DNA of 64,000 bases. Source: Ilex aquifolium. Taxonomy: Eukaryota; Streptophyta; Magnoliopsida; Aquifoliales; Aquifoliaceae. The notes under the pieces are model-generated. The model was not told the origin of the DNA. It saw only the letters and a program-made list of their open reading frames with translations, and did no database searches. The position numbers and the translations under genes are program-made. Position 1 is the first letter of the stretch. Every line of letters begins with the position of its first letter. The stretch lies in the NCBI GenBank assembly GCA_951799425.1, contig OX637409.1, forward strand, positions 12,620,960-12,684,959, written 5' to 3'. Positions 120-60,890 of the stretch are shown one piece after another.

Positions 120-2562
120 TGTGACGCCCCAATTTCCGGGGGTCCTTTATTCATCGTTGATAACCCATCAACCCGCGGAAGTATCCATGATTGTCGCACA
201 ACCCGACACCACATCAATAGCATACCCTTAACCGGTATTATAAAAGAAAAACAGAGTATATTTACTTTTAATCAGATGACCCATCCGAGGTCCAACGTAC
301 CACCATTGGTAGTCCATTATTGTCCATTTTGTAACATTTAAAGGAAGGGAAACATAAGCCGAAAACAAGGCAAAACAGTTTTAAAATTTGAAGTTTTTGA
401 GGAGTGTACCGGTACTGCGTACCAGTACGGTTTGCCCACTGGAAAATGCGTACCGGTACGCAGTACCGGTACTGTCTGTCTACTGGGCAGCAATGTACCG
501 GTACACAGTACCGGTACTCTCTGCCCAGTTTTGCCTTTTTCAACTGTTTTTTATTTCCAATCCATTCCAAACCTTCCCAAAATCATCCAATACATGTTTA
601 ATAAGATTTCCCATATAAAACATGATTTGTACAAGTTCCATTACAATTAATTTCATATATTTACACATCAAAATGGAATTTTCACAAAAACTTTACAGAA
701 TAAACCAATAAAAGCCACAAGTCGGCTTTCTTCATCCTTGGGGCTCGAAATGGGAGCCGTCCGCCGGTGTAAACCCAGCACCTGAAATGTTTTCCCGTAT
801 AGGGTGAGCTACGCTCAATAGAGTATCTCCTAAAGAGGCTACTCCCCAACCTATATGCATATGAAATGTTCACATGCCAACAATTCAACAATTCTCAACA
901 TTCCAATTTAGAATATGCATCCCATGTTGGAATCTACCATGTCATGCCATGAATTGAGATGAGACTCACTCACGCATATCAATCCCGAGCCCTTCCCGGC
1001 TCCTCACACATGCAAGTGTCAATGCATATGAATCCGTCATTTATGTTGCACATCAAATGACAACCATCAATTTAGGGTCTTTGTAGGGGTGGATGTTCAT
1101 GGACTCACACCAAAGGTCACCCAACCTACACGGAATTTACGGACTTCCACCGAAGGTTCCGCGTACACCTACACACTTCATGGGCCGAGCCAAAGGAATG
1201 CGTATCCTAATCACCGGGCCTTGCACCCGAGGGATCTTTTAACCCTTCTTGCTAACCCCAACCCTATCAACCATGCAAACCATGCGACTCGGCTAGGTTT
1301 TCAACCAAGCTCACTCGAGCCCACCTGTCATCCACCAAATGTGGTGTTGACAACAACCATGCACCTACACCCACCTAATGCGATGTTCCCGTGCATAATG
1401 CAATGTAATGCCTCATTGCAACATGATACAAAGTTCAATGTGCTATGAATGACATATGAACCATTTTAGCATATTTCACATATTCCATGGCAAAATTATA
1501 TCATAAGCATATAATTTTCATACTTCTTCACAAGTCAATATATCATAAGCATGTACATATATCAACAATTCACATAACTCAATTTCCAAGCATGTTATCA
1601 ACACACTAGATTTTCACGGCATATGTAAACACATAATCATGCCCACAAATTCATATAACACAAGAATCACATTGGGTCTATTTTATCTACCCAATTCTAG
1701 GAATCACACTTAAAATTTCTAATTTTCAATCCAAGCTAGGATTTATCTTTACCCATTTCAATACCCATTTCACCCAATTTACAAAGATCAGCAAGTGATA
1801 TATATATAATCTATCAACCTACCCATTTCACAAAACATACTAGGCTTGGAATAAACCTTAGTAGAAGGGAACCCTACCTCTTGAAGCGCAGAGAACAACC
1901 GTTGGAAGCCTCCAAGACCCGATTCTAGCCCAAAGCCCTAGCTTCCAAAAATCCCGTCCTTGAAATTTCGCCCAAACCCGACCTCCTTGAAATGGTTTTG
2001 TAGCCCTTGGAGAGGAGAACAACTTTCCCTCTTGGCTCGAGTTGATTTGAGCTCTCAATCTCCGTAGATCGTAGAGAGAAGGTGTGAAGAACCTAGCTCT
2101 TTCCCTCTCTTCTTTCTCACGTTGAACGGCTGAAGCAAAATGGGGAGTAATCGGATTTTCTCCCCTATTTATATCCTTTAAATACTTGGTCCACAATGCG
2201 CCACACGACCCTTCTTTCCCGGATCCGTTTTAGCCCCGGAACGATTAAATTTCGCTCCGGTTCAAGTTCAAAATATTTTTATTTTAACTTGCCTTCATTT
2301 ATTTTCTAAAATTTAAAATTTTATTAAAAATTTCGTTTTTGGGTCACCAAAGGCCTGACCGCCTCATAAAACGTGAAAAATCTGACTAACTCGGAATTCA
2401 ACGAAATTTGACAGGATAACTAGATTGCGCGAGAAGAATCCAACGGTGAGGTCCGTTTCATCATCCGAGTTCTAGAAAAATTCAAGTTTTCAACCCGCAC
2501 CGTGGTGACAAATTACCGTTTTGCCCTTTTTCACAAAAGTTAAAATTTACCCGGGTCTTACA
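120..2562 (-). mobile_element. Solo LTR J (chromovirus, GTACCGGTAC family)
   Basis: The LTR runs TGTGACGCCCC (120) to GGGTCTTACA (2562), the reverse complement of the Tekay-like LTR found in full elements here. It is flanked by perfect 5-bp TSDs CTTAA at 115-119 and 2563-2567, and Athila RT sequence reads on across it. No internal region is present, so it is a product of LTR-LTR recombination. On the minus strand it has a TATA box (2166-2173), a leader with a splice-donor-like AG|GTAGGG (boundary 1877/1878), the conserved block (about 777-873) and a palindrome array (405-518). Confidence 0.92.
405..518 (-). repeat. GTACCGGTAC palindrome array of solo LTR J
   Basis: Six copies of the palindrome GTACCGGTAC or near variants lie within 114 bp, separated by spacers containing cccactgga or tctactggg. 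The array is about 290-400 bp from the LTR 3' end, the same position as the TTCCGGAA arrays of chromoviruses 1 and 3. Its function is unknown. Confidence 0.9.
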
Positions 2563-5500
2563 CTTAAAAGAAGTAGTTCGCGCTGAAGTACTTAAAATAT
2601 TAGATGCTAATATTATATATCTTATATCTGATAGTAAATAGGTTAGTCCTACACAAGTAGTTCCAAAAAAATCTGGTGTTACTGTAATAAAAAACAAAGA
2701 AAATGAATTAGTCCCAATGCGTACAATCACAGGTTGGCGTGTATATATTGACTATCGAAAGCTAAATTCCCTCACCAAAAAGGATCACTTTCTGTTACCA
2801 TTCCTAGATCAAGTACTTGAAAGAATAGCTGATCATGCATATTATTGTTTTCTAGATGGATATTCTGGTTATAATCAGATTGAAATTGCAATCAATGATC
2901 AAGAGAAAACTACATTTACATGTCATTTTGGTACTTTTGTTTATAAAAGAATGCCTTTTGGGTTATGTAATGCCCCAGCTACTTTTCAGCGTTGTATGTT
3001 AAGTATATTCAGTGATATGGTAGAACGACATCTAGAAGTTTTTATGGACGACTTTTCAATATATGGTGATTCATTTCACTTATGCTTAGAAAATCTTGAA
3101 AGAGTACTTATTCGATGTGAAGAAACAAACCTTGTTTTGAATTGGGAAAAATGTCATTTTATGGTTACACAAGGTATTGTTTTAGGTCACATAGTCTCTG
3201 AAAGAGGAATTGAAGTTGATAAATCCAAAATTGACTTAATAGCTAATCTTCCTTCACCGAAAACTGTAAAAAATATTCGATCTTTTTTAGGTGACGCTGG
3301 ATTTTATAGAAGATTCATTATAAACTTTAGTTCAATATCTAAACCAATCTCTAATCTTTTATATCAGGATATAATATTTGAATGGAATGATGCATGTCAA
3401 TTAGCATTTGATGAATTAAAAAACATGTTTATTTCTGCACCTATCATGCAACCTCCTGACTGGTCTTTACCTTTTGAATTAATGTGTGATGCAAGTGATT
3501 ATGCAGTAGGAGCTGTATTAGGTCAAAGAAAAGATAAAAAACCATATGTTATTTACTATGCAAGCAAAACTCTAAATGATGCACAAATGAATTATTCAAC
3601 CATAGAAAAAGAATTACTTGCTGTCGTGTTTGCATTAGATAAATTTCGATCATATCTAGTTGGATCGTCAATTGTTATATTTACAGATCTTGCAGCTCTA
3701 AAATACTTACTTACTAAAAAAGATGCGAAGCCACGTCTCCTGCGTTGGATTTTATTACTTCAAGAATTTGATCTTATAATTAAGGATAAGAAGGAGTTGA
3801 AAATGTGGTAGCGGATCACTTGTCAAGATTGAATTACAATAGAAAGGAAGAACCAATTCCAATTAGAGAAACATTTCCAGATGAACAACTTTTAGTAATA
3901 ACCGAAGTACCATGGTATGCAGATATAGCTAATTATTTAGCTACTGGTACTATTCCTTCTAATTATACCTGGACTGATAAAAACAAGTTCCTAAGTGAGG
4001 TACGTAATTTTTTCTGGGAAGATCCTAATTTTTTTTAAATACTGTAAAGATCAAATAATAAGACGTTGTGTACCTAATCATGAAATTAGTCAGGTAATTC
4101 TGTTTTGTCATTCTAAAGCTTGCGGAGGCCATTTTGCTTCAAAGAAAACCGCTGCTAAAATTTTGCAGTGTGGATTTTATTGGCCAACTCTTTTTAAAGA
4201 TGCTCATAGTTTATGTTTAAATTGTGATAGATGTAAAAGAATGAGAAATATTTCAAAAAGAAATATGATGCCTTTAAACCCTATTTTAATTATTGAAATT
4301 TTTAATTGTTGGGGCATCGATTTTATGAGACCATTTCCTCCATCCTTTGGATATCTGTATATTTTGGTTGCAGTTGAGTATGTTTCTAAATGGGTAGAGC
4401 AATTCCAAGTTGAAATAATGATCACAAAACGGTGATCAAGTTTTTAAAAGAAAATATTTTATCCAGATTTGGGATTCCTCGAACAATCATCAGTGATGGT
4501 GGATTACATTTTTGTAATAAAGTTTTTGAAAATCTGATGAAAAAATACTTGATTTCTCATAAAATATTCACTCTGTATCATCCTCAGACAAGTGGACAAG
4601 CTGAATTAGCTAATATGGAGATAAAATATATTTTAGAAAAAATAGTAAATCCAGATCGTAAGGATTGGTCTTTAAGATTAACTGATGCACTTTGGGCTTA
4701 CCGTACTGCGTATAAGACTATTCTAGGAATGTCTCCTTATCGGTTAGTTTATGGTAAACCATATCACTTGCCTGTAGAATTAAAACATAGAGCATATTGG
4801 GCAATCAAAATGATGAATTTTGATATGGATAAAGCTGGAATATCACGTAAATTACAAATTAATGAATTAGAGGAATTAAGAAACGAAGCTTATGAAAACG
4901 CAAAAATTGCTAAATCAAGAACAAAAGTTTTTCATGATAAAAATCATAATGAGAAAATCTTTTGAACCATCTCAAAAAGTTCTGTTGTACAATGCAAAAC
5001 TTCGTTTATTCCTTGGAAAATTAAGATCTAGATGGGCATGACCTTATATAGTCAAGCAAGTTTTTGACTATGGGGCAATTGAAATTGAAAATCCAGTAAC
5101 TGGGAATATCTTCAAAGTAAATGGGCAAAGGCTTAAACCTTATTATAATGGATTCACTCAAAATGTAACTTCTATGCAACTTTTTAATCCTGTCTATGTA
5201 TGTTAAAAAAAGATATATCGTTGTTTGATTATAAGTAATATTACTAATTACTTGTAATTTGTTTGACAGATTAAATCTCCTGAGTGAAAGCCAGATATCC
5301 TAATTGCTGAAAGTGTAAAACCCGAGAAAATTTAAACCTTTGTGAAAAAGGGCAAAACGGTAAATTACCACTACGGTACAGGTTGTAAACCTGAATTTTT
5401 CTAGAACTCGGATGACGAAACGGACCTCACCGTTGGATTCGTCTCGCGAAATCTAGTTACCACGTCAAATTTCGTTGAATTCCGAGATAGTCGGATTTTT

Positions 5501-5701
5501 CGCGTTTTACGAGACGAACGGGCCCCGGGTGACCCTGTACACGAAATTTTTATAAAGTTTCCAAGTTTGGGGAAATATTAGACACAAGTTAAAATAAAAA
5601 TAATTCGAACTCGAACCGGAGCGAAATTTAATCGTTTCGGGATTAAAACGGCCCGAAATTAAATAGGACGTGTGGCGAATTGTGGGCCAAGTATTCTAAA
5701 A

Positions 5702-5709
5702 TATAAATA
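5702..5709 (+). promoter_or_regulatory. TATA box, chromovirus 1 5' LTR
   Basis: TATAAATA followed by agggg. The same sequence in the same context occurs in the 3' LTR (13365-13372), in LTRs of chromovirus 2 (21569-21576, 30895-30902), D (46943-46950) and chromovirus 3 (58654-58661), and on the minus strand in J, I and G. Confidence 0.8.
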
Positions 5710-5810
5710 GGGGGAAAAATTAGATTTTTCCCCATTGTTCAGCCGGTTTCAGCCGATAGAGAGAAAGAGGGAGAAAAGAGAGAAAACTCACCTTATCTCT
5801 ACGATCTACG

Positions 5811-5994
5811 GTGCTACGGACCTCGAATCCACGCAAGCCAAGAATTAAAGTCGCTCTACTCATCGAGGGCTACGCGGCTATACCAAAAAGCGCAAGTTTT
5901 ACCGAAGATCAAGGTACGGGATTTTCGAGAAGTGAGGGTTTTTGCTTGAATCAGGTCTTGGAACTTCCCTTGGTCGTTCCTCACGCTTCAAGAG
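5811..5994 (+). other. Conserved R-region leader ending at a splice-donor-like site
   Basis: The segment has counterparts in all Tekay-like LTRs here: a purine-rich tract, a cgagggctacg motif, an accgaagatc motif, and an end at caagag|gtaggg. An open frame starts at 5811 but runs past the putative donor and is in a different phase from gag after the inferred splice, so I read it as untranslated leader or uORF. The matching acceptor-like tgtgtag lies directly 5' of the gag ATG at 8287. Splicing is inferred, not seen. Confidence 0.5.
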
Positions 5995-7300
5995 GTAGGG
6001 TTTATTCCTACTAAGGTTTATTCCAAGCCTATAATGTTTTTATGGAATGGGTAGGATGATAGCCTATGTATCTCTTGCCTATTGTTGTGAAATTGGGTGA
6101 ATTGGGTATTGAAATGGGTAAAGGAAATCCTAGCTTGGATGGATATTTAGAAGTTACTAAATGTGATTTCTATGATTGGATATGTGAAATGAACCCAATG
6201 TGAATTCATGTGTTATGTGAAATTGTGGGCATGTTATGTGTTTATATATATGCCTTGAAATTTTAGTATGTTGATAACATGCTTGAAATTTGTATTATGG
6301 GAATTATATGCTTTTGATATGATTTTGCCATGGAATATGAGAAATGTGTTGAGAATGTTCATATGTCACTCATACCATATCGAACATTGTATTAATGTTG
6401 CAATGAAGCACCACATTGCATATGCACGGGAACATCGCATTTTAGGAGGTGTGTGTGCATGGTTGTTTGTCTTCACCACGCATGGTGGATGACGAGTGAG
6501 CTCGGGTAATATGGGTCGATGACCTAGTCAAGTAGCATGGTTTATATGTTGATAGGGTTGGGGTAGCAAGAAGGGCTAGAAAATCCCTCGGGTGAGAGAC
6601 CCGGTGATTGGATACGCACTCCGTTGGTATAAGAGCCCATAAAGTGTGTCGGTGTACGCGGAACCGTTGGTGGAAGTCCATGAATTCCGTGTAGGTTGGG
6701 TGACCTTTGGTGTGAGTCCATGAACATCCACCCCTACAAAGACCCTAGAATGAAATGTCATTTGATGTGAAACATAAATGACGGATTGGTACACATTGGC
6801 ACTTGCATGTGTAGAGGAGCCGGGAAGGGCTCGGTTGATGTGCATGAGTGAGTCTCACCTCATTTCATAGCATGGCATTACATGTTTCAACATGGAATAT
6901 ATTCTTGTTATGGATTGTTGATTGATAGCATGTGAACATTTCATATGCATTTAGGTTGGGGAGTAGCCTCTTTAGGAGATACCCTATTGAGCGTGGCTCA
7001 CCCTTTATGGGAAAAACATTTCAGGTGTGGGTTTTGCACCGGCGGATGGCTCACTTGGAGAGTATCGAGCATGAAGGGGGCCGGCTTGTGGCCTTAGTTT
7101 GAGTTTTGTAAAACCTTTAACAAAATTCCATTTTGATGTATATATATTATGGAATGAATTGTAATAGAGCTTGTATGGGTTGTGTATTATATGGAAAATC
7201 TCATTAAACATGTATTGGATGAGTTTGGAGTGTATGGGGTAGCTTTAAGGATGGTTTGGAGGGGAAAGAAATCCATTTTTTTTGTTCCCAGTCTGAAAAC

Positions 7301-7692
7301 CTACCGGAAGGTGTATGTCGGCCTTCCGGAAGGTTTTGCTAAAAAAACCCTGGATGTCTTGTTCACGGCTAATACCTTCCGGAAGGTTTTGCCCACTGGA
7401 ATGAACCTTCCGGAAGATTTTAGTTACTGGAGTAAATCTTACCGGAAGGACTTGTCTACTGGAATGGACCTTCCAGAAGGTTTTGCCTTGGGTTTCTTTT
7501 TGACTGCCAAATTCTTCCGGAAGGTTTTGTTTTCTGGAATGAACCTTCCGGAAGGTTTTGGCTACTGGAATGAACCTTCCGGAAGGTTTTTGCTACTGAT
7601 GTCGACCTTCCGGAAGTTCTTGCAATTGATTCTTTTCATTTAACTGTACTTTCATCGATCTTCCGGTAGGTGTACGTCGACCTTCCGGAAGG
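7301..7692 (+). repeat. ACCTTCCGGAAGGT palindrome array, 5' LTR of chromovirus 1
   Basis: About a dozen copies of a palindrome with core TTCCGGAA, five or so perfect as CCTTCCGGAAGG, occur at irregular 30-60 bp spacing. Spacers repeat a ctactggaatgaa motif. The same array is in the 3' LTR (14963-15356) and in chromovirus 3 (60263-60654). TTCCGGAA fits the TTCnnGAA half of a heat-shock element. Confidence 0.93.
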
Positions 7693-7932
7693 TTTTTCCA
7701 AAAATCTGAAATTTTCAAAATGCTTAGCCATGCTCTTGGGCTTTGTTTTCTTTGGTTCCTATGACTTAAATGGACATAAATTGAGGTATAATTGACCTTG
7801 TGGATGGTAAATCCGGTTAAAAGCATGTGAATGACGTGGTGTCGGGTTATACGACTATCACGAGTATTTCCGCGGGTTGACGGATGGTCAACGGTTAATA
7901 AAGGACACCCGGAAATTTGGGGCGTCACAGCT

Positions 7933-7944
7933 TGGTATCAGAGC
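7933..7944 (+). other. Primer-binding site (initiator tRNA-Met), chromovirus 1
   Basis: TGGTATCAGAGC lies three bases after the 5' LTR and is complementary to the 3' end of plant initiator tRNA-Met, the usual minus-strand primer for this group. Confidence 0.92.
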
Positions 7945-8286
7945 ATAGGTATGCGATTTACCTAGGGCTTGATGGGGCATGGGTGTAGACCATTGCATTC
8001 ATTGTACATTACATGTTATGTGCTTAAATTGCTACATGTTATGTGATATGTGATATGTGTATTATATGCATGGTAAAACGTGTATGAAAAATGGACACAC
8101 TAGGGTTAGAGAACTTAACCTTGGGAGTGGGAAAGCAAATGAACGGGAAAGTTCAAAGCGTAAGGGTCCACTATTGGAGGCATACGCTCTACTAGTGAGA
8201 CAATGAGAAAGATTTAAATGTTTTAACTTTGGTCCCTACTTCGGGATACTAAGTTAGTGTGCCATTGCCATTTGACGTGTGTGTAG
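7945..8286 (+). other. Untranslated region between PBS and gag, chromovirus 1
   Basis: No ORF is supported. Related sequence sits at the same place in chromoviruses 2 (23482-23825) and 3 (60906-61241). The stretch ends in tgtgtag directly before the gag ATG, which looks like a splice acceptor. Confidence 0.6.
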
Positions 8287-11200
8287 ATGGCAAGTGGAAG
8301 GAGAGGACGTCGGGGCGGTGGACGGAACAATAACCAACCACCACCGGTCTTCGATCAACAAGCATTTACGGAAACCATGGGTATGATGGCGGCTACTGTT
8401 GCACAAGCTAGTGCAAGTGCCGGGCATGGAGGTGCGAGTAACCTCCAACAGTTTAAAGCACACAAACCTCCAGTCTTCATGGGAGGGGCGGACCCGATGG
8501 TGGCTGACCATTGGTTCCGGCAAGTCAACAAAATCTTAGGGGCGATGGAGGTCACCTCAGACGCTACTAAGATAAGACTAGCTGCATTCCAGCTAGAGGG
8601 AGAAGCCCAATTGTGGTGGGATTGGGTGACGGCCTCGAAGAACTTAGATGCCATGACATGGGGAGAGTTCAAGGAGCTCTTCATGGGTAAATATTTCCCA
8701 ACGGCCGTTCGACATGCAAAGGCCCGAGAGTTTCTAGATTTGAAGCAAGGGTTGATGACGGTGATGGAGTATGTGGCTAAGTTCACCGAATTAGCCCGAT
8801 TTGCTGATGATTACGTGGCCACGGATATAGCCAAGGTAAGAAGGTTCGAGGATGGGTTGAAGCTATCCATCCGGGGAAAGATTGTGGGCCTCCGCCTGCA
8901 AGACTTGGACTTTATGGTCGAGACAGCTATGGCCATTGAGAGGGAGGTTGACGATGCTCGAAGCATCCGTGAGGCGGGTGCTAAGGATAAGAAGAAGGAG
9001 GGCCAATCCTCTTCTTCTAGTTCGGGGAAGAAGCAGAGAACTTCTACTCCACAAGGACAACAAGGACAGGGCCATGGCTATCAAGGCCAAGGCCAAGGTC
9101 AATTTTCCCAGGGCGGGAGAAACTTCAGGACTACCCACCAGGCAGGCCAGAAGACATGTTTCCATTGCCACCAACCGGGGCATATGAAGCGGGATTGTCC
9201 GCAGAGGCAAGGATCCCAGAGCTATGGGACACCTCAGTCCCAGTCATCAGTGGGACAGTCACAGACACACCTTGTTCCTCCCTACCCCAACATGGGCCAG
9301 AGAAACCAGTATCAGTTCCAGGGCACTACTCAGGCCCCTACCACCTTTCGAGCGGGGACTCCGCAGTCGGGCCAGATGGGCCAAGGCATGGGTCGAGGCC
9401 GAGGACAGGGCATGCAGGCCGGGACTTCGGGGACCCAGGGGCGTGTCTACGCCATTACACCTCAGGCTGAGCCAGTGGACCAGTCGGTCATTCAGGGTAC
9501 ATTTCTACTTTCTCGCTTATGGGCTAAAGTATTATTTGACTCTGGTGCATCACATTCATTCATTTCTGCATCATGTGTGAGGGATTTGGGCTTAGAGGTT
9601 GATGCCTTGGAAGAGCCGTTGTATGTGAATTCACCCCTAGGAGCTAGGGTGTGTGTGAATCAGATATGTCGGGGTTGTGAGCTAGAGATCTCGGGGATTC
9701 TACTCACCGTGGACCTTAGGGTTATGGACATGTCGGAATTCGATGTCATCCTTGGGATGGACTGGTTGGCGGCGTATCGGGTCGTTATTGATTGTGACAG
9801 GAAGAGGGTCACTGCCTATACACCGGACGGTGTTTGTTTCAAGTTTCAGGGGGAAAAGCATGATGCTTTGCCTCAAGTCGTGTATGATTCGCGATGGCAT
9901 GGACAATTGATGGGTTGGCTTGCGAGCCTTACCCTGGAGGACGAGGCAAGACAAGAATTGGGTCTACCTCGGGTGGTGTGCGAGTATGAGGACGTCTTTC
10001 CGAACGAGTTGCCGGGATTACCTCCCCATAGGGATGTGGACTTTAGCATTGAGTTGCATCCGGGTACTTCGCCCATTTTTATGACTCCACATAGGATGGC
10101 GCCAGCTGAGTTGCAAGAACTCAAGGTCCAATTACAAGAATTATTGGACAAGGGCTTTATTAGACCGAGTACCTCACCTTGGGGCGCTCCGGTGCTGTTT
10201 GCCAAGAAGAAGGATAAGACCCTTCGATTGTGTATAGACTATCGGCAGTTGAACCGGGTCACCATCAAGAATAGGTACCCTTGCCGAGGATCGATGATCT
10301 GTTTGATCAGCTGAGGGGAGCGCGTGTCTATTCAAAGATAGATCTCCGCACGGGCTACCATCAGTTGAGGATTAGGGAGTCAGATATCCCTAAGACGGCG
10401 TTCAGAACGCGGTACGGGCATTTCGAGTTCACGGTGATGCCATTTGGGTTGACGAATGCCCCAGCGGCATTCATGGATCTCATGCATAGGGTGTTCCAGC
10501 CCTATTTAGATCAGTTTGTCGTAGTGTTTGTTGATGACATCCTGATCTACTCCAAGACAGAGGAGGAGCATGAGGGTCACTTGAGGATTGTTCTCCAGAC
10601 CTTGAGGGACCATAAATTGTACGCCAAGTTCAGCAAGTGTGAATTTTGGCTCACGGAGGTGAAATTCTTGGGACACGTGGTGTCAGCTTCGGGGGTGTCA
10701 GTTGACCCGGAGAAGGTTGATGCAGTTATGAGCTGGGAGAGGCCAAAGTCAGTCTTCGAGATACGTAGTTTCTTGGGATTGGCGGGGTATTACCGGAGGT
10801 TCATCGAGGACTTCTCCCGACTAGCCGCACCGATGACTAGATTGACCCGGAAGGAGGTCAAGTTCGAGTGGAATGATTCGTGTGAGAAGACATTCCAAGA
10901 ACTAAAGAGGAGACTCACTGCAGCTCCTATCTTGATTGTTCCAGAAAGGGGACAAAACTACACGGTATATTGTGATGCCTCCAAAGACGGACTGGGTTGT
11001 GTCTCGATGCAGTCCGGGAGAGTGGTGGCTTATGGTTCTCGACAGTTGAAGAATCACGAGCAGAATTACCCTACGCATGATATGGAGTTGGCGGCCGTTG
11101 TCTTTGCCTTAAAGGCTTGGCGCCACTATTTGTATGGCGAACAATTTGAGGTGTTTTCGGACCACAAAAGTCTGAAGTACATCTTCACTCAGCGGGACCT

Positions 11201-12881
11201 CAACATGAGGCAACGTAGGTGGATGGAGTACCTAGAAGACTATGACTTCACATTGCATTACCACCCTGGTAAGGCAAATGTGGTGGCTGATGCATTTAGC
11301 CGGAAGTCACGGGGTGTTTTAGCTAGTGTAGCTTCCCGGGAGTGGCGGATGCTTGAGGCCGTGGGCCAATTTGGGCTGCATTATCAGGGTCGGACTCAGG
11401 GTGTTTTAGGGAGCTTGGCGGCTACGCCTTCCCTACTGAGTAGGGTTATTGAATCCCAGAGTCAGGACACGGAGCTATTGTCCATCCGGGACCGTATACA
11501 TGCAGGTACTAGTGACGAGGGCTGGGCCATTCACTCGGATGACAGTCTTCGGTTTAGGGGAAGGGTTGTGGTTCCCCAGTCGGCGGAGCTGAGAAAGGAG
11601 ATCCTCAGGGAGTTCCATTGCTATCGTTTTGCGGTGCATCCAGGCGGCACGAAGATGTATCACGATCTTCGTCGCCAGTATTATTGGAGCGGGATGAAGA
11701 GGCAGATTGGCGACTTCGTCAGTAGATGCCTCACGTGTCAGCAGATTAAGGCTGAACACCAAAGACCAGCTGGTTTGCTCCAACCATTGGAAGTGGCTGA
11801 GTGGAAGTGGGAGCACGTCACGATGGACTTTGTGACCCACTTTCCACGGACATCGCGGGGGCATGACGCGGTGTGGGTGATAGTGGACCGGCTTACGAAG
11901 TCGGCGCACTTTTTGGCGGTGCGGATGACCTTTACAATGGAGGAATTCTGCAGGTTGTACATAAGGGAGATAGTCCGGTTGCATGGGGTACCCGTGTCTA
12001 TAGTATCAGATCGGGATCCCAGGTTTACGGCTCACTTTTGGGAGAGTTTCCAGCGAGCCATGGGGACTCAGTTGAGGATGAGCACAGCCTACCATCCCCA
12101 AACGGACGGTCAGTCGGAAAGGACCATCCAGACATTAGAGGACATGCTACGGGCATGCGTCCTAGATCTCAAGGGTAGCTGGGAAGAGCATTTGCCCTTA
12201 GTGGAATTCGCCTACAATAACAGTTATCAGGCGAGCATACGGATGGCACCCTATGAGGCGCTTTATGGGAGGCCTTGTCGTTCTCCGGTTTGTTGGACTG
12301 AAGTTGGAGAAAGACCCTCTACGGGTCCAGACTTGATTAGAGACACCTCGGAGAAGGTGAACCTGATAAGGAAGCGTCTTCTCACGGCTCAGAGCCGGCA
12401 GAAGAGTTACGCCGATAGGCGGCGGCGACCTCTGGAATTTGAGGTGGGAGATCACGTCTTCTTGAAGGTGATGCCTAAGAGAGGGGTGATCAGATTCGGC
12501 AAGCGGGGAAAGCTGTCGCCGAGGTATATTGGGCCCTTTGAGGTGCTTGAGAGAGTGGGCACTGTGGCCTACAGATTGGCGTTACCGCCAACTTTATCGG
12601 GTGTTCACGCGGTATTCCATGTCTCCATGCTCCGGTAGTATACTCCAGATCCGACGCATGTTGTGGATTGGGGCGAGCTCATATTTGATGCAGATGGGAC
12701 CTTCGAGGAGGGACCAGTGCGTGTCATGGATAGCCGAGAGCAGGTTTTGCGAGGCAAGACCGTGAGGCTAGTGAAGGTGTTGTGGCAGCACCGAGGAGTG
12801 GAGGAGGCAACATGGGAGCGTGAGGACACCATACGTGCCAATTATCCTTTGTTATTTGAGGATGGAGGTGCATTCTTATAG
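8287..12881 (+). pseudogene. gag-pol: gag-pol polyprotein of chromovirus 1 (one frameshift, one nonsense codon)
   Basis: The polyprotein reads: gag from ATG 8287 with RG-rich start and capsid-like part; zinc knuckle [14 protein letters not shown] (about 9157-9198, CX2CX4HX4C); protease with DSGASHSF (about 9538); RT with FVDD active site (about 10528); RNase H (CDASKDGLG, about 10970); integrase HHCC (about 11620-11750), DDE residues near 11826, 12008 and 12115; chromodomain-like tail with VKVLWQHRGVEEATW (about 12772-12816). A one-base loss in a T-run near 10280 splits it into frames 8287-10314 and 10281-12638. A stop at 12636-12638, where chromovirus 2 has Lys, cuts off the chromodomain part, which otherwise stays open to 12881. 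The start is chosen because it directly follows a conserved TAG acceptor-like site and is shared with elements 2 and 3. Confidence 0.93.
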
Positions 12882-12957
12882 TCATTTAGTATTATATGAC
12901 TGTTGCATATGCGTGTAATTGTGTGTGCATGAGTGTGTGAATTTCGGGGACGAAATT

Positions 12958-12975
12958 CTTTTAAGGGGGGAAGAA
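12958..12975 (+). other. Polypurine tract, chromovirus 1
   Basis: TTTTAAGGGGGGAAGAA abuts the 3' LTR and is the expected plus-strand primer. It is preceded by a short gggacgaaattc motif shared with chromovirus 2. Confidence 0.85.
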
Positions 12976-15592: not shown

Positions 15593-15597
15593 GAAAG

Positions 15598-16439: not shown

Positions 16440-16783
16440 AGGAATTTACAAGAAAAAGAGAAAAATGCAGAAAATCAGAAAAACAGTCTGCAGTTGCAAA
16501 CCAAAAACCAGTCAGATAGCACCGTCCGGACGGTGTGACTAGCATCCGGACGGTAGTACCCATATATATATCTTCTCCATGCAGAAAATCAATTAGTTCA
16601 GTTTCCCTCGCAAGCCAAATACAAAATTAGCCGAAATTCTCCAAAGAATAGCTCTCAAATCTGCTACACTCAACCGTTTTTCGTCAAATCTGCTCCGATT
16701 ATTCTTCTACCCATCACATTTTGAAGATAACTACTGATTGAAATCAGTTGAAACGGAGTATTTGAAGAGAAATCAAGAAAAAT
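16440..16783 (+). promoter_or_regulatory. Putative internal promoter of Athila env-position ORF
   Basis: A perfect palindrome ACCGTCCGGACGGT (16521-16534) is followed by a half copy catccggacggt (about 16542-16553) and a TATA-like tatatatat run (16563-16571). The 3' LTR has the same pair in the same order (19912-19947) upstream of its TATAAATA (19996-20003). About 210 bp of leader then precede the ATG at 16784. No other ORF lies here. Promoter function is inferred from this duplication. Confidence 0.5.
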
Positions 16784-19639: not shown

Positions 19640-19652
19640 TTTAAGTTGGGGG
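19640..19652 (+). other. Polypurine tract of Athila
   Basis: TTTAAGTTGGGGG directly before the TGTGATTAAC that opens the LTR. The form is typical of Athila elements. Confidence 0.8.
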
Positions 19653-23465: not shown

Positions 23466-23468
23466 GAT

Positions 23469-47510: not shown

Positions 47511-47826
47511 GGGGGGCTGTTTTGTGGTTATTGCGGACTGTTTTTAAGTTGATTTTGGACTGAAATTGCGGACTGTTTTTGGACTGATTTTGCGGACTGT
47601 TTTTGGACTGTTTTTGGACTGAAATTGCGGACTGTTTTTAAGTTGTTTTGGACTGAAATTGCGGACTGTTTTTGGACTGATTTTGGACTGAAATTGCGGA
47701 CTGATTTTGGACTGAAATTGCGGACTGGTTTTGGACTGATTTGGAGCTGAAATTGCGGACTGTTTTTGGACTGATTTGGAGCTGAAATTGCGGACTGTTT
47801 TGGGTTGAATTTATGGACTGTTTTGG
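47511..47826 (+). repeat. ggactg minisatellite in solo LTR D
   Basis: About 20 steps built from ggactgttttt, ggactgaaattgc and ggactgatttt. It sits at the same place as the chromovirus 2 minisatellite but with diverged units. The long ORF on the other strand (NFSPKSVQKQ-type repeats) is an artefact of the repeat. Confidence 0.88.
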
Positions 47827-49625: not shown

Positions 49626-51706
49626 TGTAATACCCCAAATACCACCCTGGACGGCATTACATACTAAAACCATTTACATCATGAGAGCACTAATATCATC
49701 CATAGATAAATTAAACTTCATTCATCATCCATAAAATATTTACATCATTATCCAAAAGAATATGCCCAACCATGGCATTTACATCTCAAAAATTAATTAA
49801 AGTAGCACAGCGGAATAGCAAAAGAAACTAGACCTTACAGTGTCCAAAAGAATAACCTAGTCTAGTACAAAAGAAAGCTACATCTCTACATATCCACCTC
49901 GGGATCTAGGTTCCCCTCGAGTGGAGCCTCCCAATGCCCTGACCCGTCGATGCCGAGATCCTCCTCTAGCACCAAATCTGAAAAATGTAATTTGTAGGGG
50001 ATGAGCACGAAGCTCTGTAGCAAAATCTTCCCAACTCAAACAAGGTTTATAAAAATATAAAACGGGTCGGTCACATTTCGAAAATAATATATATCAATTT
50101 TTGAAGGAAAAACAGGACAGTTTAAAGAGATCTCAAGTTTAAGCCATAACAACAATCAAGTAAAAGAATCAATTAAATTGAACAACAATACACCGTGTCC
50201 AAAGTTAGGCCAATTCGGAAGGGCGTCTTCCGATGCATTGTCCCATACCAATGCACCGGCCAAGACGTTCCAACTCATCATCCCATGTATATTGGTTCAT
50301 CTCCGTACCATGTATGTTGATTGTTTCTCATGAATCTACCCAACGATTATACTTAGTCCACCAATCACAATCACATTCACAAGCATTTTAGGAAAGGGCG
50401 TCTACCATCCCAATGGCAGTGACGAGTCCCTTCCCAGGAAAAGTATACTATCCCTTGTTCGAACTCCAGTGAACGATAGTGGTTTCATTACCAAATGACA
50501 ACCCACTACAAGTGCTAGGAAACCATCTCACCCCCACTGGGGTAGACTAACCTCTAACACTCTACGGCATCTCTCGAAGGCAATCCAAGTCCCTCACAAC
50601 AACCATACAATTGAGGAAACCAACATATTCTCAATTCATCAACATTTCAAGGAATTACCAAATTCCACAATTTCTAATATAATGTTTCACAATATGATGG
50701 AAGAAAATGAGCAAGAGATTATCATAAGTAACATTTTGGTGTACAATATCAAACACTAAAGTTTTGAAAGCAATACCAAGGAAAAATAGAGGGAAAAATC
50801 CATTTCTCTTTAGAACCAAGGTTTGAAGATGAAAAAGAGAAATTTAATAGTTACCCAACCATCACAATGTTCAAAACATGGCATTTATTTCAAGAGGAAC
50901 AAGAATCATGTATTTCTTATCATGTATATAAGGATGAGAGTAAAAAACATATATATATACATAAACCCTAGCCTCAATGTAAGAGATTAGGAAGAAATCC
51001 CCTACCTCAATGCTCAAGAGTTTTGGCCAAATACCCAAGCTTCAAGACCTTCTTGCTTTCCTTTCTTTTCCTTTTAATCTCCTCTCCCTAGGGTTTTCAA
51101 AAGATTTGGGTGAGAGGGGGGTGAAGAATGGAAGAAAAGAGAATGAGTAGAGAAGTGAAATCTTAGAAATCTAGGGTTTTAATCTTCTAAAATGGTGTAT
51201 CTCTCCTTATCTTTGATGTTCTTCTCTCCCTCTCTTTCTCTCTAAAGGTGCCTAGGGTTTAGAAGGCTGAAATGGGGCTCAAATAGTCGGCCTTAAGTAT
51301 TTATAGGGAGAGAGAGAGAGGCCGAAATTCGCGACTTTAAAATAAACAGTCTGGTTTCGGTAGTACTGGTACTCAGTACCGGTACCCAGTACCGGTACCA
51401 TTTACCCAGTTTTGCCTATTTCTTTTGTTTTCCATTTCCAATCCATTCCAAAACTAACCAAATCCATCACAAACCTCTCCAACACATATTTATACACCAA
51501 ACCTATCTAATACAAGTTATAGGACCTAACATTTTATATTTTCACTCACTAAAACTAAATTTCAACTATGATTTTCATTAACATTTTAAATCTTTACTTT
51601 TCAAATTTACAAAGTTCAAACACACTTCAATACCCCTATCCACATCTTTACAACCATTATTTGCTATATCTATATATCTATATGAATGAAAATGCGGGGT
51701 GTTACA
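49626..51706 (-). repeat. 3' LTR of element C
   Basis: 2081 bp; on the minus strand it opens TGTAACACCCCGC and ends GGGGTATTACA. Minus-strand TATA box at 51298-51305, with a GTACCGGTAC array (about 51363-51400) roughly 60-100 bp upstream of it. Confidence 0.9.
51298..51400 (-). promoter_or_regulatory. Element C promoter: palindrome array plus TATA box
   Basis: Three GTACCGGTAC-type palindromes (51363-51400) lie upstream of TATAAATA (51298-51305, minus strand). The other LTR copy has a longer array (54164-54249) upstream of its TATA (54099-54106). Confidence 0.65.
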
Positions 51707-51744
51707 ATCCACCCCCCTTAAAGAAAGTTTCGTCCTCGAAACTT

Positions 51745-52310
51745 ACCTCAAGTAGTGAACAAAAAGGGATACTTCTCCCGCATTTCTTGCTCCGGTTCCC
51801 ATGTAGCTTCCTCCACTCCATGGTGTTGCCACCAAACCTTCACTAGTCGGATGACTTTGTTATGGAGTACCTTTTTCCTTTACGTCGAGAATTTCTACCG
51901 GTTGTTCTTCGTAGGTTGCTCCGTCTTAAATTTCCATCTCCTCCAAGTTCATGACTGGAGTTGCATCCGAGTGACACGTCCTCAACATCGACACGTGAAA
52001 CACGCCATGTACTCCGGATAGCTGGGCTGGTAGTCAAAGTTGATACGCCGCATTGCCTACTGCTTTGATCACTTCAAACGGTCCGGTATATCTTGGCGCT
52101 AACTTCTCCTTCTAGCCGAATCGAAACACGCCCTTCTTGTGTGACACCTTGGAAAACATGTAATCTCCCACTTTTAATTCCAAGGATCTTCGTCTGTGGT
52201 CCGCGTAGCTCTTCTGTCTACTTCGCGCCGTGCGTAGCCTCTCCCGGATGAGTTGAATCTTCTCCGTAGTTTCCCCATTGTAGTCCTTACTCCGTTAGTT
52301 CGTGCGCACT
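51745..52310 (-). pseudogene. pol: Integrase C-terminal part and chromodomain-like tail of element C
   Basis: On the minus strand it reads an integrase tail (QKSYADHRRRSLELKVGDY; a GPFEV motif; [13 protein letters not shown]) and then a chromodomain-like end (VKVWWQHHGVEEATWEPEQ). At least three stops and a frame break are visible. The DDE core and all RT are gone. The purine tract at 51709-51724 (minus strand) precedes the LTR. Confidence 0.82.
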
Positions 52311-52394
52311 CTGATATAAATTACAATCCACCAAAGGTTACAGTTGAAACCTAACCAGACTTGTCCTCCCATCTTAGCTTCCAAATCCATATAC

Positions 52395-53300
52395 ATTTTT
52401 CCAACGAAATAATTTAAGAAAAATTAACATAATATCATCGAAAATACCATTTTATTGGTCAATACCAATCTTTAGAATTTTGAATTAATGAGCAAATAAA
52501 TAATCAAGCTTTGGAATCAAGAATAAATGGCTATCAAACTTTGAAATCAAGAACGAAAGAACAAGCAAGGTTTGAAATTAATAACAAACGAATCTCAAGT
52601 TTTTGGAATCCAAAATAAAGGAACAATCAAGTCTCGAATTCCATAACAACTCATATCAAGCTTTGGAATCAAAATAAGAAACAATCAAAGCTTGAAATCA
52701 AGAACCAAAGAATGTCAAATATTGAATATCAAGAATACATGAATTACAATAGTTAGAATCAATCAAATGAATACCAAATTTGGCTATCAAGAGCAAATGA
52801 ATATTAAGCTTGGCAATCAAGAATAAAAGTGTATCAAGCTTGAAAGTCATGAATAAATGAGAAATTAAGATTTAACGGAACAATCATGTATGGAAATCAA
52901 TAACAAACGACTATCAAGGTGTGAAATCAAGAACAAAGGATTATGAAGCTTAGAAATCAAGACCAAAAGAACACTCAAGTCTTGGAACCAAGAATAAAGA
53001 ATATCAAGTATTGAATATTGAATATTGAAAATAATTGAATCACAAGGGTAGAATCAATAACAAAGGAATATCAAATTTTTGATACCAAGAACAAATGGAT
53101 CATTAAGCTTAGGAAATTAAGGACAAAGAAACAATCAAGTCTCGAGATCCATAACAACGGATATCAAGCTTGGAATCATAGATAAAGTAACAATCATATA
53201 TTGGAATTGATAACAAATGACTATCAAGGTTTGAAATCAATGACAAAGGCAAGATAAAGAGAAAACACCTCTCCCTTGAAAACTAGGATTTCAAGGGCAT
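52395..53300. repeat. Degenerate tandem repeat inside element C
   Basis: About 25 units of roughly 35-40 bp with the pattern atcaagcttggaatcaag and aacaaatga, all in the same orientation. It occupies the place where RT and RNase H should be. No ORF. I do not recognise it; it may be expanded noncoding sequence carried by this derivative. Confidence 0.75.
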
Positions 53301-53441
53301 ACCAAAAGGATTTGGTGGTCACCCACCCATAACATAGCTTAGAAAAAATAACATTTAAGTTCGGGAATCAAGAACAAAGGAGAAATCAAGAGAAAAACAC
53401 ATCTCCTTTGTAAACTAGGGTTTGAAGGCATAAGAAAAGAT

Positions 53442-54013
53442 TTAGGGTTTACCCCACCATAATATATTTTGGGACAAGGTAGTATTACCCAGAATGGCAA
53501 GACATGATGATTCCCTAGCAAGTAGATATAAATTAGAGTCAAAGAAATACATATAAGTAAACCTACTGGTAACTGAAATGTAATCCGCTTGCACGTAACC
53601 CTTGCAGACTAGCCTGGTATCCCCCTGTTCTCCCGTAGGCAAGTCAACATATAAAGCATGTTCTAGCTCCTCGGAACCCAATCCCAATTCCACAACGTCC
53701 GCAGTACGTATAGAAGAATGAGTCGCATAGGAATCCAATAAAATTCGGGCCCAAGAATGGTAGAGAAGAACGATACCATCCACAACGGCATTGGAGGCAT
53801 CTTCCTCCGGTTGGGTCAAAGCAAAAACCCTTCCTTGATTGGCGCCGCCGGGGCATGAGCTTGTAACGGTCTCTGTGGTGGTAGTGGCTGTCGTAGCGAT
53901 GGCCTGTTTGCATTCACTCGCCCAGTTGCTTGCTTGGTTATTGGGGGAAACAAGGGGCATCTATGTTTGAAGTGCCCATACTCTCCGCATGCAAAGCATG
54001 GGCACGGGTCCAT
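53442..54013 (-). pseudogene. gag: gag C-terminal zinc knuckle and protease of element C
   Basis: Minus-strand reading from 54013: zinc knuckle CFACGEYGHFKHRC (CX2CX4HX4C), then a frame break into GRVFALTQPEE and a protease with LLDSYATHSSI, where the family has DSGATHSFI. The Gly of the DSG/DTG active-site motif is changed to Tyr, so the protease is dead. Coding is lost after about 53580. Confidence 0.82.
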
Positions 54014-54049
54014 GCCTACTCTCGTCTGAGTATGGGCGCAGGTTTCTGG

Positions 54050-54555
54050 TGCCTAGGGTTTAGAAGACTGAAATGGGGCTCAAATAGTCGGCCTTAAGTA
54101 TTTATAGGGAGAGAGAGAGAGGCCGAAATTCGCGACTTTAAAATAAACAGTCTGGTTTCGGTAGTACCGGTACCATTCAGTACCGGTACCCAGTACCGGT
54201 ACCAGAAACCTTCTGGAATCGGGGGTACCGGTACTCAGTACCGGTACCATTTACCCAGTTTTGCCTATTTCTTTTGTTTTCCATTTCCAATCCATTCCAA
54301 AACTAACCAAATCCATCACAAACCTCTTCAACACATATTTATACACCAAACCTATCTAATACAAGTTATAGGACCTAACATTTTATATTTTCACTCACTA
54401 AAACTAAATTTCAACTATGATTTTCATTAACATTTTAAATCTTTACTTTTCAAATTTACAAAGTTCAAACACACTTCAATACCCCTATCCACATCTTTAC
54501 AACCATTATTTGCTATATCTATATATCTATATGAACGAAAATGCGGGGTGTTACA
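54050..54555 (-). repeat. Truncated 5' LTR of element C
   Basis: Only the first 506 bp of the LTR (minus strand) remain, joined to gag at 54049. It matches 51248-51706 apart from a few substitutions and a 48-bp longer palindrome array (54164-54249). Confidence 0.9.
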
Positions 54556-54560
54556 GATGT

Positions 54561-54638
54561 GTTTATATGTTACACTTTTACACACCAATGTCACACTTCG
54601 TACATTAACATAGGAACCCCAGTTTTAGGGGCATCACA
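54561..54638 (+). other. Orphan LTR-terminus-like piece inside solo LTR D
   Basis: Right of the C insertion, about 70 bp that end in ggggcatcaca lie between tttatatg and agtatgcataaatgg, which are adjacent in chromovirus 2 LTRs. It looks like the last bases of another LTR left behind. Confidence 0.4.
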
Positions 54639-55304
54639 AGTATGCATAAATGGACCCGGTATGGTCATGATTTTATATTGGGCCTCGGATGGGTCATATG
54701 ATTATATATTGCACATGTTGGGTTTTGGGTAGAGCTTCCCGTACAAAGGAGACTCTGCCCGGATTTTTTTAAATTAGGGATCCCGGTAAATGGGACATAA
54801 CGGTGTGATATCAAGTTACACGATATCCACAGGAATTCCACGGGTTGATGGGTGATCAACAGACCCCCAGATTTTGGGGTGTCACACCTACAAACAATAT
54901 ATTTTTCAGATTATGGTTTAGGGGAGGAGCTCGGAGTTGATGAGCAGATAGCTTGGGAAACTCAATTGGATGGAAGCGTGGATCCCGAGGGGAACGTATA
55001 TAGTTGTTCTCTTTTTGTCCTAGACTAGGAGAGGATTTTGGGACAATGTATAGATGATATTTTGTTTATTCCGCTGCAAGATAATAGTTTATTTTTGATG
55101 TACTTGTCTTAGTGGGGCATATTCTTTTTGGATGTAATGGCCATGGTTTGGCATTCTTTTGGATGATGTTATAGATATTGTGCATGATGAATGAAATTTT
55201 CTTTACTTATGGAAATTATTAGTTGCTGTCCTGATGTGAATGATTTTAGATAGTAATGTCGTCCAAGGGGGATTTTAGGGCGTTACAGTTTTAGGGACGT
55301 CACA

Positions 55305-58265: not shown

Positions 58266-60890
58266 TGTGAAACCCGGGAAAATTTGAAATTTTTCTGAAA
58301 AAGGGCAAAATGGTAATTTGCCATTACTGCACGTATTTGAAATACATATGTTCTAGACCTCGGATGAGGAAACGGAGTGCGTCGTTGGATTCGCAACGCG
58401 AAATCTAGTGACCACCAGAAAATTCGTTGAATTCCGAGATAGTCGGATTTTGCACGTAGTTCGAGACGACTGCGTGGCGATTGACCTTTTAAAGGTCCCC
58501 AAAAACGAGAAATATTAAATTTCCTTATAATTGGATTAATGTGCCAATAAAATTTATTTGGACTTAATCCGGGACTTAATGAGTCGTTTCGGGACGAAAA
58601 ACGGACCCGAAAGTAATAAACGAGCGGTGCGATGTAGACCACACATTTAAAATTATAAATAGGAGCTAAAATATCTGAAAAATCAGAATTTCCAAGCCAC
58701 TTGAGTCTTTGTTCAGCCGTTCAAAGAGAGAGAGAAAGAAAGGAGAGAGAAAAGGGTTTTCTTAAGCCTTTCTCCGGCGATTTCTCCGACAACCGTCGCT
58801 CGGATTCCGTCAAGCTAGAAGAGAGAAGTGATCTACTCGTCGAGGGCTACGTCTACGTACCAAAAATAAGGCGTTTCACCGAAGATCCAAAGGTGGAGTT
58901 TGGGGAAAGTCTTGGATTTTGGGTGATTTTGGTGTATAGAGATTGCCTACATCTCTATTGAGGTAGGGGTTAATCCTATCTTGGATCATTCTACTCTAGG
59001 TGTAGCTAGAATAAGGGTATACATAAATATATGCATGAGTAATAATGTATATATGTGATTTATGGTTTGTGCCTACAAGGTGTTTGTTTAAATGCCTTAG
59101 TTGATAAATGGGTGTTATTTCAATTATATTGTGATAACATATTTGTGTGTATAGAGATAATTGAAATTTATGCTCTATGTTGTCAAGATATGACTTTGAT
59201 GTGTTGATATGAATATGTGGTTTGGTAGTTATATGCACTTGATATAATTGCCATGAAGTTATGACATGTTGAACATGTGGATACATTGCTCATGTAGTAG
59301 ATGTTGCATTTTGAGCATTTTCATGGCATCACATTCATGGGACTATTGCATGAGTGTTGGTGTGTGGGAGATGCATGGATATAATCAACACCTTGTTTGG
59401 TGGTTGATATGTGGGCTTGGAAATGTGGACCGATGGTCACATGGAGTCACATGATTGCATTGCATAAGGAAAAACTTGTGTTGGGTATAGCAAGAAGGGG
59501 CATGACGACTTCCTTGGGTGCAAAACCCTAAACCACTTGGTTGTGTCACTTGGCCGGCGGTGAGATTCCAGAAAAGTGACACGGTGTACGGAACCGGCGG
59601 TGTGATTCCGAAAATCCGTTGCCCAAAGAAAACACAAGGGTTTTGGTTATAAAAACACCCATTCAATGGGTAGATTCAAATGATGATCGGATTTCATAAC
59701 GATCATTGGAAGGGTTTTTCCGTCAATAGACGGGGTGCATTACACTTTGGCGTTGCATTGTGTTGCGTGAGTCGGTGGGGACTCGGGTTGAAATGCATGG
59801 GTGAGTGTCACTTCATTCCATGGCATAGCATTGTTGCATTCCATCATAGAATGCATAAGTATGTGAAATGTTAAGTGATATGTTTATGTTATGATTACAT
59901 GAGCATGTGCATCTAGGGGGAGAGTAACCTCTATAGGTTTATCTCTACTGGGCGTTGTGCTCACCCTATACGGGAAACCATTTTCAGGTGTCGGGTTTAC
60001 ATCGGCGATTGGCTCCCATGGAGAGCATCAAGGGTGAAGGGGGCCTATGTGTGGCCTTAGTTTAAGTTTTGTAAAACCTTTAACAAAATTCCATTTTGAT
60101 GTATATATATTATGGAATGAATTGTAATAGAGATTGTATGAGTTGGGTATTATATGGAAAATCTCATTAAACATGTATTGAATGAGTTTGGAGTGTATGG
60201 GGTAGCTTTAAGGATGGTTTGGAGGGGGAAGAAATCCATTTTTATGCTCACAGTCTGAAAACCTACCGGAAGGTGTGTGTCGGCCTTCCGGAAGGTTTTG
60301 CTAAAAACCCCAGCTTGCCTTGCTCACAGCTAGTACCTTCCGGAAGGTTTTGCCCACTGGAATGAACCTTCCGGAATATTTTAGCTACTGGAGTAAAACC
60401 TACCGGAAGGACCTGTCTACTGGAGTGGACCTTCCGGAAGGTTTTGCCTTGGGTTTCTTTTTGACTGCCGAGTTCTTCCGGAATGTTTTGTTTTCTGGAA
60501 TGAACCTTCCGGAAGGTTTTGGCTACTGGAATGGACCTTCCGGAAGGTTTTTGCTACTGATGTCGACCTTCCGGAAGTTCTTCAAATTGATCTTTTTCAT
60601 GTAACAGTTCCTTCAGTGACCTTCCGGTAGGTGTATGACGACCTTCCGGAAGGTTTTTCCAAAAACTTGAAATTTTCAAAATGCTTAGCCATGCTTTTGG
60701 GCTTTATTTTCTTTGGCTTCCATGACATAAATGGACATAAATGGAGGTATAATTGACCTTGTGGATGGTAAATCTGATTAAAAGCATGTGAGTGACGTGG
60801 TGTCGGGTTATACGACTATCACGAGTATTTCCGCGGGTTGACGGATGGTCAACGGTTAATAAAGGACCCCCGGAAATTTGGGGCGTCACA
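58266..60890 (+). repeat. 5' LTR of chromovirus 3
   Basis: 2625 bp, TGTGAAACCCG to GGGGCGTCACA. TATA box 58654-58661, donor-like AG|GTAGGGG at 58962/58963, conserved block about 59900-59990, palindrome array 60263-60654. From about 60060 on it is very close to chromovirus 1, before that much less so, suggesting a recombinant LTR. Confidence 0.92.
60263..60654 (+). repeat. ACCTTCCGGAAGGT palindrome array, chromovirus 3
   Basis: About a dozen copies collinear with the array in chromovirus 1, with several substitutions in single copies. Confidence 0.92.

Follow-up and report, generated by a model that had tools for sequence, protein, structure and literature searches.

We analyzed a 64,000-nt stretch of the Ilex aquifolium genome (contig OX637409.1, positions 12,620,960 to 12,684,959 of the forward strand; hereafter the window), in which the long terminal repeats (LTRs) of several retrotransposons carry arrays of short palindromes. 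The source assembly, 800 Mb in 103 contigs, was searched genome-wide for the same sequences, and numbered loci (L001 and higher) are stretches of that genome. We call each repeated palindrome a word and use five short names: GTAC for GTACCGGTAC, CTAC for CTACCGGTAG, CTTC for CTTCCGGAAG, CGTT for CGTTCGAACG and CGTC for CGTCCGGACG. Their half-sites are GTACC, CTACC, CTTCC, CGTTC and CGTCC, respectively. Every palindrome cluster that an initial annotation of this DNA had listed is present, at the right coordinates. The arrays and word pairs are as follows.

406–517, minus strand: array J, six GTACCGGTAC copies, five perfect, in pairs 13 bp apart
7301–7691, plus strand: array A1, in the 5′ LTR of element A, 12 CTTCCGGAAG-type copies, eight perfect
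14964–15354, plus strand: array A2, in the 3′ LTR of element A, 12 copies, eight perfect
16523–16552, plus strand: X16, two CGTCCGGACG words 20 bp apart, one of them imperfect, with TATATATA immediately 3′
19915–19944, plus strand: Y19, two CGTCCGGACG words 20 bp apart, one of them imperfect, with TATAAATA downstream
28148–28260, no strand assigned: array K, seven GTACCGGTAC-type copies, four perfect, in an apparent solo LTR (26771–28720)
36755–36866, minus strand: array I, six GTACCGGTAC-type copies, three perfect, laid out as in J
42291–42480, plus strand: array F, eight CTACCGGTAG-type copies, four perfect, at spacings of 22 and 30
43305–43377, plus strand: array E, three CGTCCGGACG copies, all imperfect, in a slot homologous to that of the CGTTCGAACG arrays of L028
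44539–44634, no strand assigned: array L, six GTACCGGTAC-type copies, four perfect, in an apparent solo LTR
51363–51398, minus strand: array C1, three GTACCGGTAC-type copies, two perfect
54164–54247, minus strand: array C2, five GTACCGGTAC copies, all perfect
60263–60652, plus strand: array A3, 12 CTTCCGGAAG-type copies, seven perfect

Palindrome arrays and the elements that carry them

The tetranucleotide CCGG occurs 225 times in the window, compared to 117.9 ± 11.5 times in 100 shuffles. The check proposed with the initial annotation, palindrome over-representation against dinucleotide-shuffled LTRs, came out in its favor: CCGG-centered 10-bp palindromes outnumber those in every one of 300 shuffles in all ten array LTRs tested (J, A1, A2, K, I, F, L, C1, C2 and A3), and A1 contains eight where 0.14 are expected. 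Six other stretches were treated in the same way. B1, B2, G and E contain zero such palindromes, and X16 and Y19 contain one each, a count matched by 5 and 12 of the 300 shuffles, respectively. E had been described as a carrier of TCCGGA sites; its three copies are real, each with one mismatch, and none is perfect.

Copies within an array agree with each other, as had been claimed, and tandem duplication of 31- and 52-bp units accounts for part of this uniformity. The spacings in A1 range from 22 to 53 and are mostly 31. In F, the outer arms CTA..TAG are unbroken in all eight copies and changes are restricted to the CCGG core. Array J has a box, TTTTCCAGTGGGCAAAC, within one of its two long spacers. 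By eye, an outer stem (CTGGGCAG/CTGCCCAG) surrounds a word pair in J (450–560) and another (TGGACAG/CTGTCCA) is found in I (36787–36905), with a compensating change relative to J, which hints at structure beyond the words.

The clusters at 7301–7692 and 14963–15356 belong to the two LTRs, 99.4% identical, of a single element A. This element spans 5314–15593, is inserted into an Athila-like element with a 5-bp duplication (GAAAG), and encodes gag, protease, reverse transcriptase (RT), RNaseH, integrase and SH3_Tf2-1 domains (Pfam). It had been called a chromovirus, but no chromodomain scored above threshold in the two open reading frames (ORFs) tested; no relatives of its pol were confirmed in viral contigs. 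Where coding parts were tested, which excludes the KL and E LTRs, the Pfam domains and their order (RT-RNaseH before integrase) are those of Ty3/gypsy elements. The two copies C1 and C2 are about 90% alike and probably form the LTR pair of one element; K and L belong to a single family (87%). J and I are each about 78% identical to the element A LTR over aligned parts, and 76% to each other. In a self-comparison, most array LTRs fall into one homologous group that includes element A, at about 66–83% over aligned parts. Some clusters that had been listed separately are thus the two LTRs of one element, or members of one family. The LTRs B1, B2 and G belong to the same lineage and do not carry the words.

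Two further observations concern these LTRs. K (26771–28720) and L (44080–45990) resemble solo LTRs, with TGAT..ATCA ends and 5-bp duplications (GCGAC and GATGG), and K is located in the internal part of element B. The LTRs B, G and H bear other tandem repeats, of a 23-bp GGGCTGTTATAT type and others (21930–22201, 31255–31530, 40888–41002 and 47530–47826), and no palindrome-word array was found in them.

Shared words and homologous slots

A few CpG-centered words, GTACCGGTAC, CTACCGGTAG, CTTCCGGAAG and CGTTCGAACG, recur across different Ty3/gypsy LTR groups. Their cores are CCG overlapping CGG (CCGG) or, in CGTTCGAACG, TTCGAA with a TCGA center. We scanned 324 kb for ungapped 10-mer palindromes present in at least three copies, tolerating one mismatch, and found arrays of the GTAC, CTAC, CTTC and CGTT words only, with 3 to 12 copies each. 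The fifth word, CGTCCGGACG, occurs in twos and threes, partly imperfect (X16 and Y19 have just two copies), and the scans of 324 kb found no array of it with at least three copies. Five block-shuffled versions of 264 kb yielded no array. A wider scan of the 324 kb with gapped palindromes returned the words plus other repeats, which we take for ordinary tandem repeats; its filter removed two-letter arms, CTTC arrays included, so that the CTTC arrays rest on the narrower ungapped scans.

The words are abundant in the genome as closely spaced copies. GTAC words 3 bp apart occur 12,088 times, versus 0 for a backward-pattern control; words 5–35 bp apart number 14,406 for CGTT (backward control, 0) and 12,333 for CTTC (backward control, 1). 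Copies of a rearranged control palindrome, GATCCGGATC, lie 0–30 bp apart only twice genome-wide. Besides the window's own A-array copies (L001 and L002), six further copies (L003–L008) have 7 to 9 perfect words of 12; some of them lie close together and may be LTRs of one element. Twenty 10-kb stretches (200 kb) from the arms of contigs 1 and 2 contained two arrays, both of CGTTCGAACG and both in L028, and a single exact word copy outside arrays (CGTC in L015). Six 10-kb stretches taken at round coordinates, on contigs bearing element A copies, contained ten arrays, at least one in each stretch (CTAC, two; GTAC, three; CTTC, one; CGTT, four).

The arrays of A1 and A3 (CTTCCGGAAG), J and I (GTACCGGTAC) and F (CTACCGGTAG) have flanks that align with each other both upstream and downstream; consequently, they sit in one slot of homologous LTRs. 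Within this slot the word differs in both arms, while a spacer box is sometimes kept. A box, TTTTCCAGTGRGCAAAC, within the 21–22-bp spacer is common to J and L031 in the same orientation, even though their words differ (GTAC versus CTTC). The J–L031 spacer match is 29, compared to 13.4 ± 2.2 in shuffles (z = 7.2), and the I–L031 match is 23, compared to 13.6 ± 2.2. The box of A1 is inverted relative to those of J, I and L031, and arrays thus occur in either orientation. Similarly, F (CTAC) and L029b (GTAC) share spacings of 22 and 30 as well as a spacer box (z = 4.6), and the outer base pair of their words is different throughout. An inverted match between A1 and L030a (z = 6.1) joins unlike backbones and unlike words; considering this match and the 171 array pairs compared, one such z-score on its own says little about descent.

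Word differences of the same kind are found on other backbones. The CGTTCGAACG arrays of the L028 LTRs are flanked on either side by sequence homologous to LTR E, which has CGTCCGGACG (upstream 74–78%, downstream 74–83%). In two other comparisons the homology covers one side: X16 and Y19 (CGTC) match L030a/L034a and L030b (CGTT) upstream only, at 67–79%, in blocks some 350 and 250–350 bp from the array and with Y19 offset by about 100 bp, and K and L (GTAC) match L029a and L032 (CTAC) on one side at 67–70%.

A tree of the upstream flanks places J and I together (99/99) beside A1 (100/100), with A3 next. L031 (CTTC) is 94.5% identical to A1 downstream of the array, yet it falls in the other half of this tree, a conflict that points to recombination in or close to the array. 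Upstream of the array the C LTRs (GTAC) resemble J, and downstream they partly resemble E; L029a resembles F on one side and KL on the other. Arrays therefore likely also mark recombination joints. The LTRs at 51247–54860 in the window and at 3136–5400 in L029 have a chimeric appearance, and the apparent breakpoint coincides with the palindrome array.

These comparisons change the rules that had been proposed for the palindromes. A CCGG core common to all, methylatable as a rule, does not hold, because CGTTCGAACG has a TCGA core without CCGG and, in homologous elements elsewhere in the genome, fills the slot occupied here by CGTCCGGACG; we discarded CCGG as the defining feature. Arms are fixed within a subfamily, as had been observed, but the same arms are shared between different LTR groups. 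Consequently, the notion of a private recognition site for each family was also abandoned: words are common to different LTR backbones and differ within one backbone. The five half-sites are linked by single steps. In a test framed after the data had been seen, 43 of 200,000 random sets of five were linked in this way (52 of 200,000 with a G+C limit), as were 4,513 of 200,000 random sets when the four CCGG words were considered alone.

Promoter context, conservation and the Athila-like element

Of 15 arrays, seven (X16, Y19, L028a, L028b, L030a, L030b and L030c) are followed within 170 bp by a TATA[AT]A motif, compared to 3,516 of 20,000 random stretches (17.6%); the corresponding P of 0.009 assumes independent arrays, which L028a and L028b are not. 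By eye, C2 has TATAAATA 57 bp downstream in the sense direction. The observed/expected CpG ratio is 1.67, 1.11 and 0.99 in arrays K, L and F, compared to 0.51 and 0.44 in the whole LTRs of K and L and 0.37 in the rest of F. The A1 array is below its LTR in this measure, and J, I and C2 are little above theirs. Among 176 word copies, 53 of 77 deviations are C to T or G to A, as would be expected if the cytosines were methylated.

We quantified conservation across seven pairs of arrays with the same word. The numbers of differing positions are 28/502 in words, 107/767 in spacers and 472/3354 in flanks, so that words change 2.5-fold less than spacers in total; word positions were labeled by similarity to the word (at most two mismatches) in one sequence, which biases the word counts downwards. 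The effect is strongest in the J–I pair (words 2/60, spacers 22/52, flanks 114/491), and the word–spacer difference is significant in three of the seven pairs (A1–A3, J–I and K–L). In six near copies of the A array, the share of changed positions is lower in words (14/720) than in spacers (62/1617), but similar to that in flanks (41/1859).

The Athila-like element carries word pairs at two positions, and its relevant ORFs are listed here together with their homologues.

15849–16187, plus strand: NABP ORF of the Athila-like element, with a carlavirus-type nucleic-acid-binding domain (PF05515, Viral_NABP; E = 1e-10)
L030 2808–3227 and L034 1769–2188: homologues of the NABP ORF, after integrase and before the array
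17030–17719, plus strand: Transposase_32 ORF (PF20167), downstream of X16

L030 is 75% identical to the window element in pol, and L034 is 93% identical to L030. In both relatives the order is integrase, NABP ORF, then array and TATA box; in L030 the Transposase_32 ORF follows, as in the window. X16 and L030a both lie between the NABP and Transposase_32 ORFs, and L034a follows NABP in the same order. X16 is likely an internal promoter of the Athila-like element, ahead of the ORF in the env position. L030 has a second array further downstream. Homology (94%) puts the corresponding array of L034 before gag, which places it in the LTR. Y19 occupies the equivalent place in the window and is presumed to lie in the LTR of the same Athila-like element, whose start we place by eye near 19651 (a purine run, then TG). 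The word in both promoters is CGTC in the window element and CGTT in L030 and L034, a single contrast.

The NABP ORF is under purifying selection: the ratio of nonsynonymous to synonymous divergence (dN/dS) is 0.25–0.28 between lineages, with dS above 1. Between L030 and L034 it is 1.12, from too few changes to be informative. Public data contain 11 homologues; in the sampled sequences, tblastn found NABP only in the Athila-like copies (window, L030 and L034; L002 repeats the window copy). The NABP protein is a candidate trans-acting factor for the words.

Possible readers of the words

We consider it probable, with room for doubt, that dimeric DNA-binding factors recognize the arrays, which would be clusters of dyad-symmetric sites close to the promoter. 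Each word would be the site for one protein dimer, and the array would be situated in the U3 region of the LTR and, in the Athila-like lineage, also in the likely internal promoter before the env-position ORF. Three features suggest a dimeric factor: most copies are symmetric in themselves, the two arms differ in concert, and orientation is irrelevant. The half-sites are related, and the factors that read them may have correspondingly similar specificities; the most likely candidates are paralogues from a single family of host transcription factors. A host family is preferred because different backbones have words in common and element A revealed no additional protein; since element A-type, KL, C/E and Athila-like LTRs share words, the factor should not be encoded by each family. 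LTR lineages would then swap words in place, with both arms changing across the array while the slot, the spacing and sometimes a neighboring box persist. The change could come about through mutation combined with turnover of the array, or arrays could recombine with each other, and a new word would put the element under another factor. The recognition site for a DNA-binding factor that the initial annotation proposed survives in this qualified form, with dyad symmetry, a partly promoter-proximal position, few recurring spacings and, in total, higher conservation than spacers and flanks in its favor.

Several observations weigh against this explanation. Eight of the 15 arrays have no strict downstream TATA box, including L029b and L031; two of the eight are L034a, where TATAAAAG straddles the region boundary, and L034b, which was assessed in the wrong orientation. 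By eye, element A-type LTRs have only weaker TATA-like runs. For four of the seven pairs, the advantage of words over spacers does not reach significance; the word–flank difference is significant only in J–I and C2–L030c, and the labeling by similarity itself favors low word counts. The near absence of words outside arrays in the 200-kb arm sample would be odd for an ordinary host factor, and no known plant factor for the words was matched among the matches listed. An LBD or other plant factor was considered as the reader and set aside, with nothing usable among the matches listed. Three resemblances are possible leads and no more: CTTCCGGAAG may resemble heat-shock elements, GTAC the SPL sites and GTTCGAAC the tRNA B box.

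The near confinement of words to arrays in that sample would fit the main rival, a co-evolving protein encoded by the elements themselves, as in VANC/VANDAL, with NABP as the candidate and element A-type LTRs borrowing it in trans. What sets it above the other rivals is that the two promoters of one element differ in word in concert, and the conservation of NABP and its public homologues speak for it as well. However, this is one contrast of two word states, and NABP was found only in Athila-like copies of the sampled sequences while GTAC, CTAC and CTTC arrays occur in other LTR groups; we judge this rival unlikely. A more elaborate version is a long shot in our view. In it, the words would form a shared operator code: the Athila-like NABP would bind the palindromes and activate or unsilence them, lineages would evade one another, or silencing by the host, through single-base changes of the half-site made in both promoters at once, and LTR groups without NABP would parasitize the same words.

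The palindromes could also act as RNA or single-strand structure, with hairpins in the 3′ U3 transcript serving small-RNA production, RNA dimerization or packaging. The three arrays folded as RNA give strong z-scores (A1, −11.3; J, −10.0; F, −6.4), GTAC pairs 13 bp apart form 10-bp stems with 3-nt loops, and maize Sirevirus palindromes are reported to be small-RNA hotspots (PMC5311732, PMC10760457). Any palindrome array folds well, though, and the arrays occur in both orientations, at several spacings and partly upstream of the TATA box, hence outside the 5′ part of the transcript; such a role seems to us improbable. We give still less credence to a neutral origin, in which a palindrome-prone repeat multiplied through tandem duplication and template switches and owes its symmetry and uniformity to turnover with no reader. 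Three findings fit this view: tandem repeats make up part of the arrays, C and L029a appear to be chimeras joined at the array, and in several pairs the words are no better kept than flanks. Against it, words change less than spacers in total, the same words occur in backbones with no other detected homology, spacings recur and both arms differ together.

The initial annotation knew of no description of such a palindrome code, but a related kind has been described: the closest is the palindromic repeats of the Sireviruses, which are Ty1/copia elements. The primary description (Bousios et al. 2010, PMC2829016) reports palindromes with one consensus per element in at least eight copies, a CGG-...-CCG signature in 12 of 13, CpG islands, clustering in the LTR just upstream of the TATA box and also upstream of env, and near-identical words in distant elements; it calls the motifs Sirevirus-specific within its Ty1/copia set. 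The arrays described here likewise consist of repeated palindromes with words common to distant elements, and X16 and L030a correspond to the extra copies ahead of the env-position gene. Copy number (3 to 12 per array, and two in X16 and Y19), TATA proximity (7 of 15 arrays) and CpG enrichment (clear in K, L and F) agree in part. The differences are the Ty3/gypsy setting, a CCGG or TCGA center instead of the CGG-...-CCG signature, the one-step chain of half-sites, different words on homologous backbones, and the word pair or array followed by a TATA box before the Transposase_32 ORF. The maize Sirevirus LTR palindromes likewise form a palindrome-rich, variable cis-region, in a different superfamily, according to the same two papers.

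The VANC/VANDAL systems (PMC5735166, PMC10398659) also have tandem arrays of short motifs in non-coding transposon DNA that differ between related elements, and these change together with the transposon's protein. Here, the words are shared by different families and are palindromic; the string ‘palindrom’ is absent from the main text of PMC5735166.

Subfamilies of the Ty1/copia element Tnt1 differ in their U3 tandem boxes and enhancer repeats, and we know of no cross-family word set there. Palindrome arrays in Ty3/gypsy LTRs were not described among the matches listed, which comprise titles and abstract openings, with subscription literature mostly outside. Among the matches listed, no word of 10 bp or longer appeared in print; these matches comprise one paper with the shorter TACCGGTA (Phytophthora) and five with shorter words, none of which concerns LTR promoters to judge by its title.

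The arrays thereby extend palindromic promoter arrays from the Ty1/copia Sireviruses to Ty3/gypsy elements, where homologous LTRs differ in the word at the same slot. This makes it testable how retrotransposon families change their regulator, whether host or element factors are the readers, and whether the sharing and splitting of words structures the competition between families in one genome. It also gives a handle on how retrotransposons are switched on.

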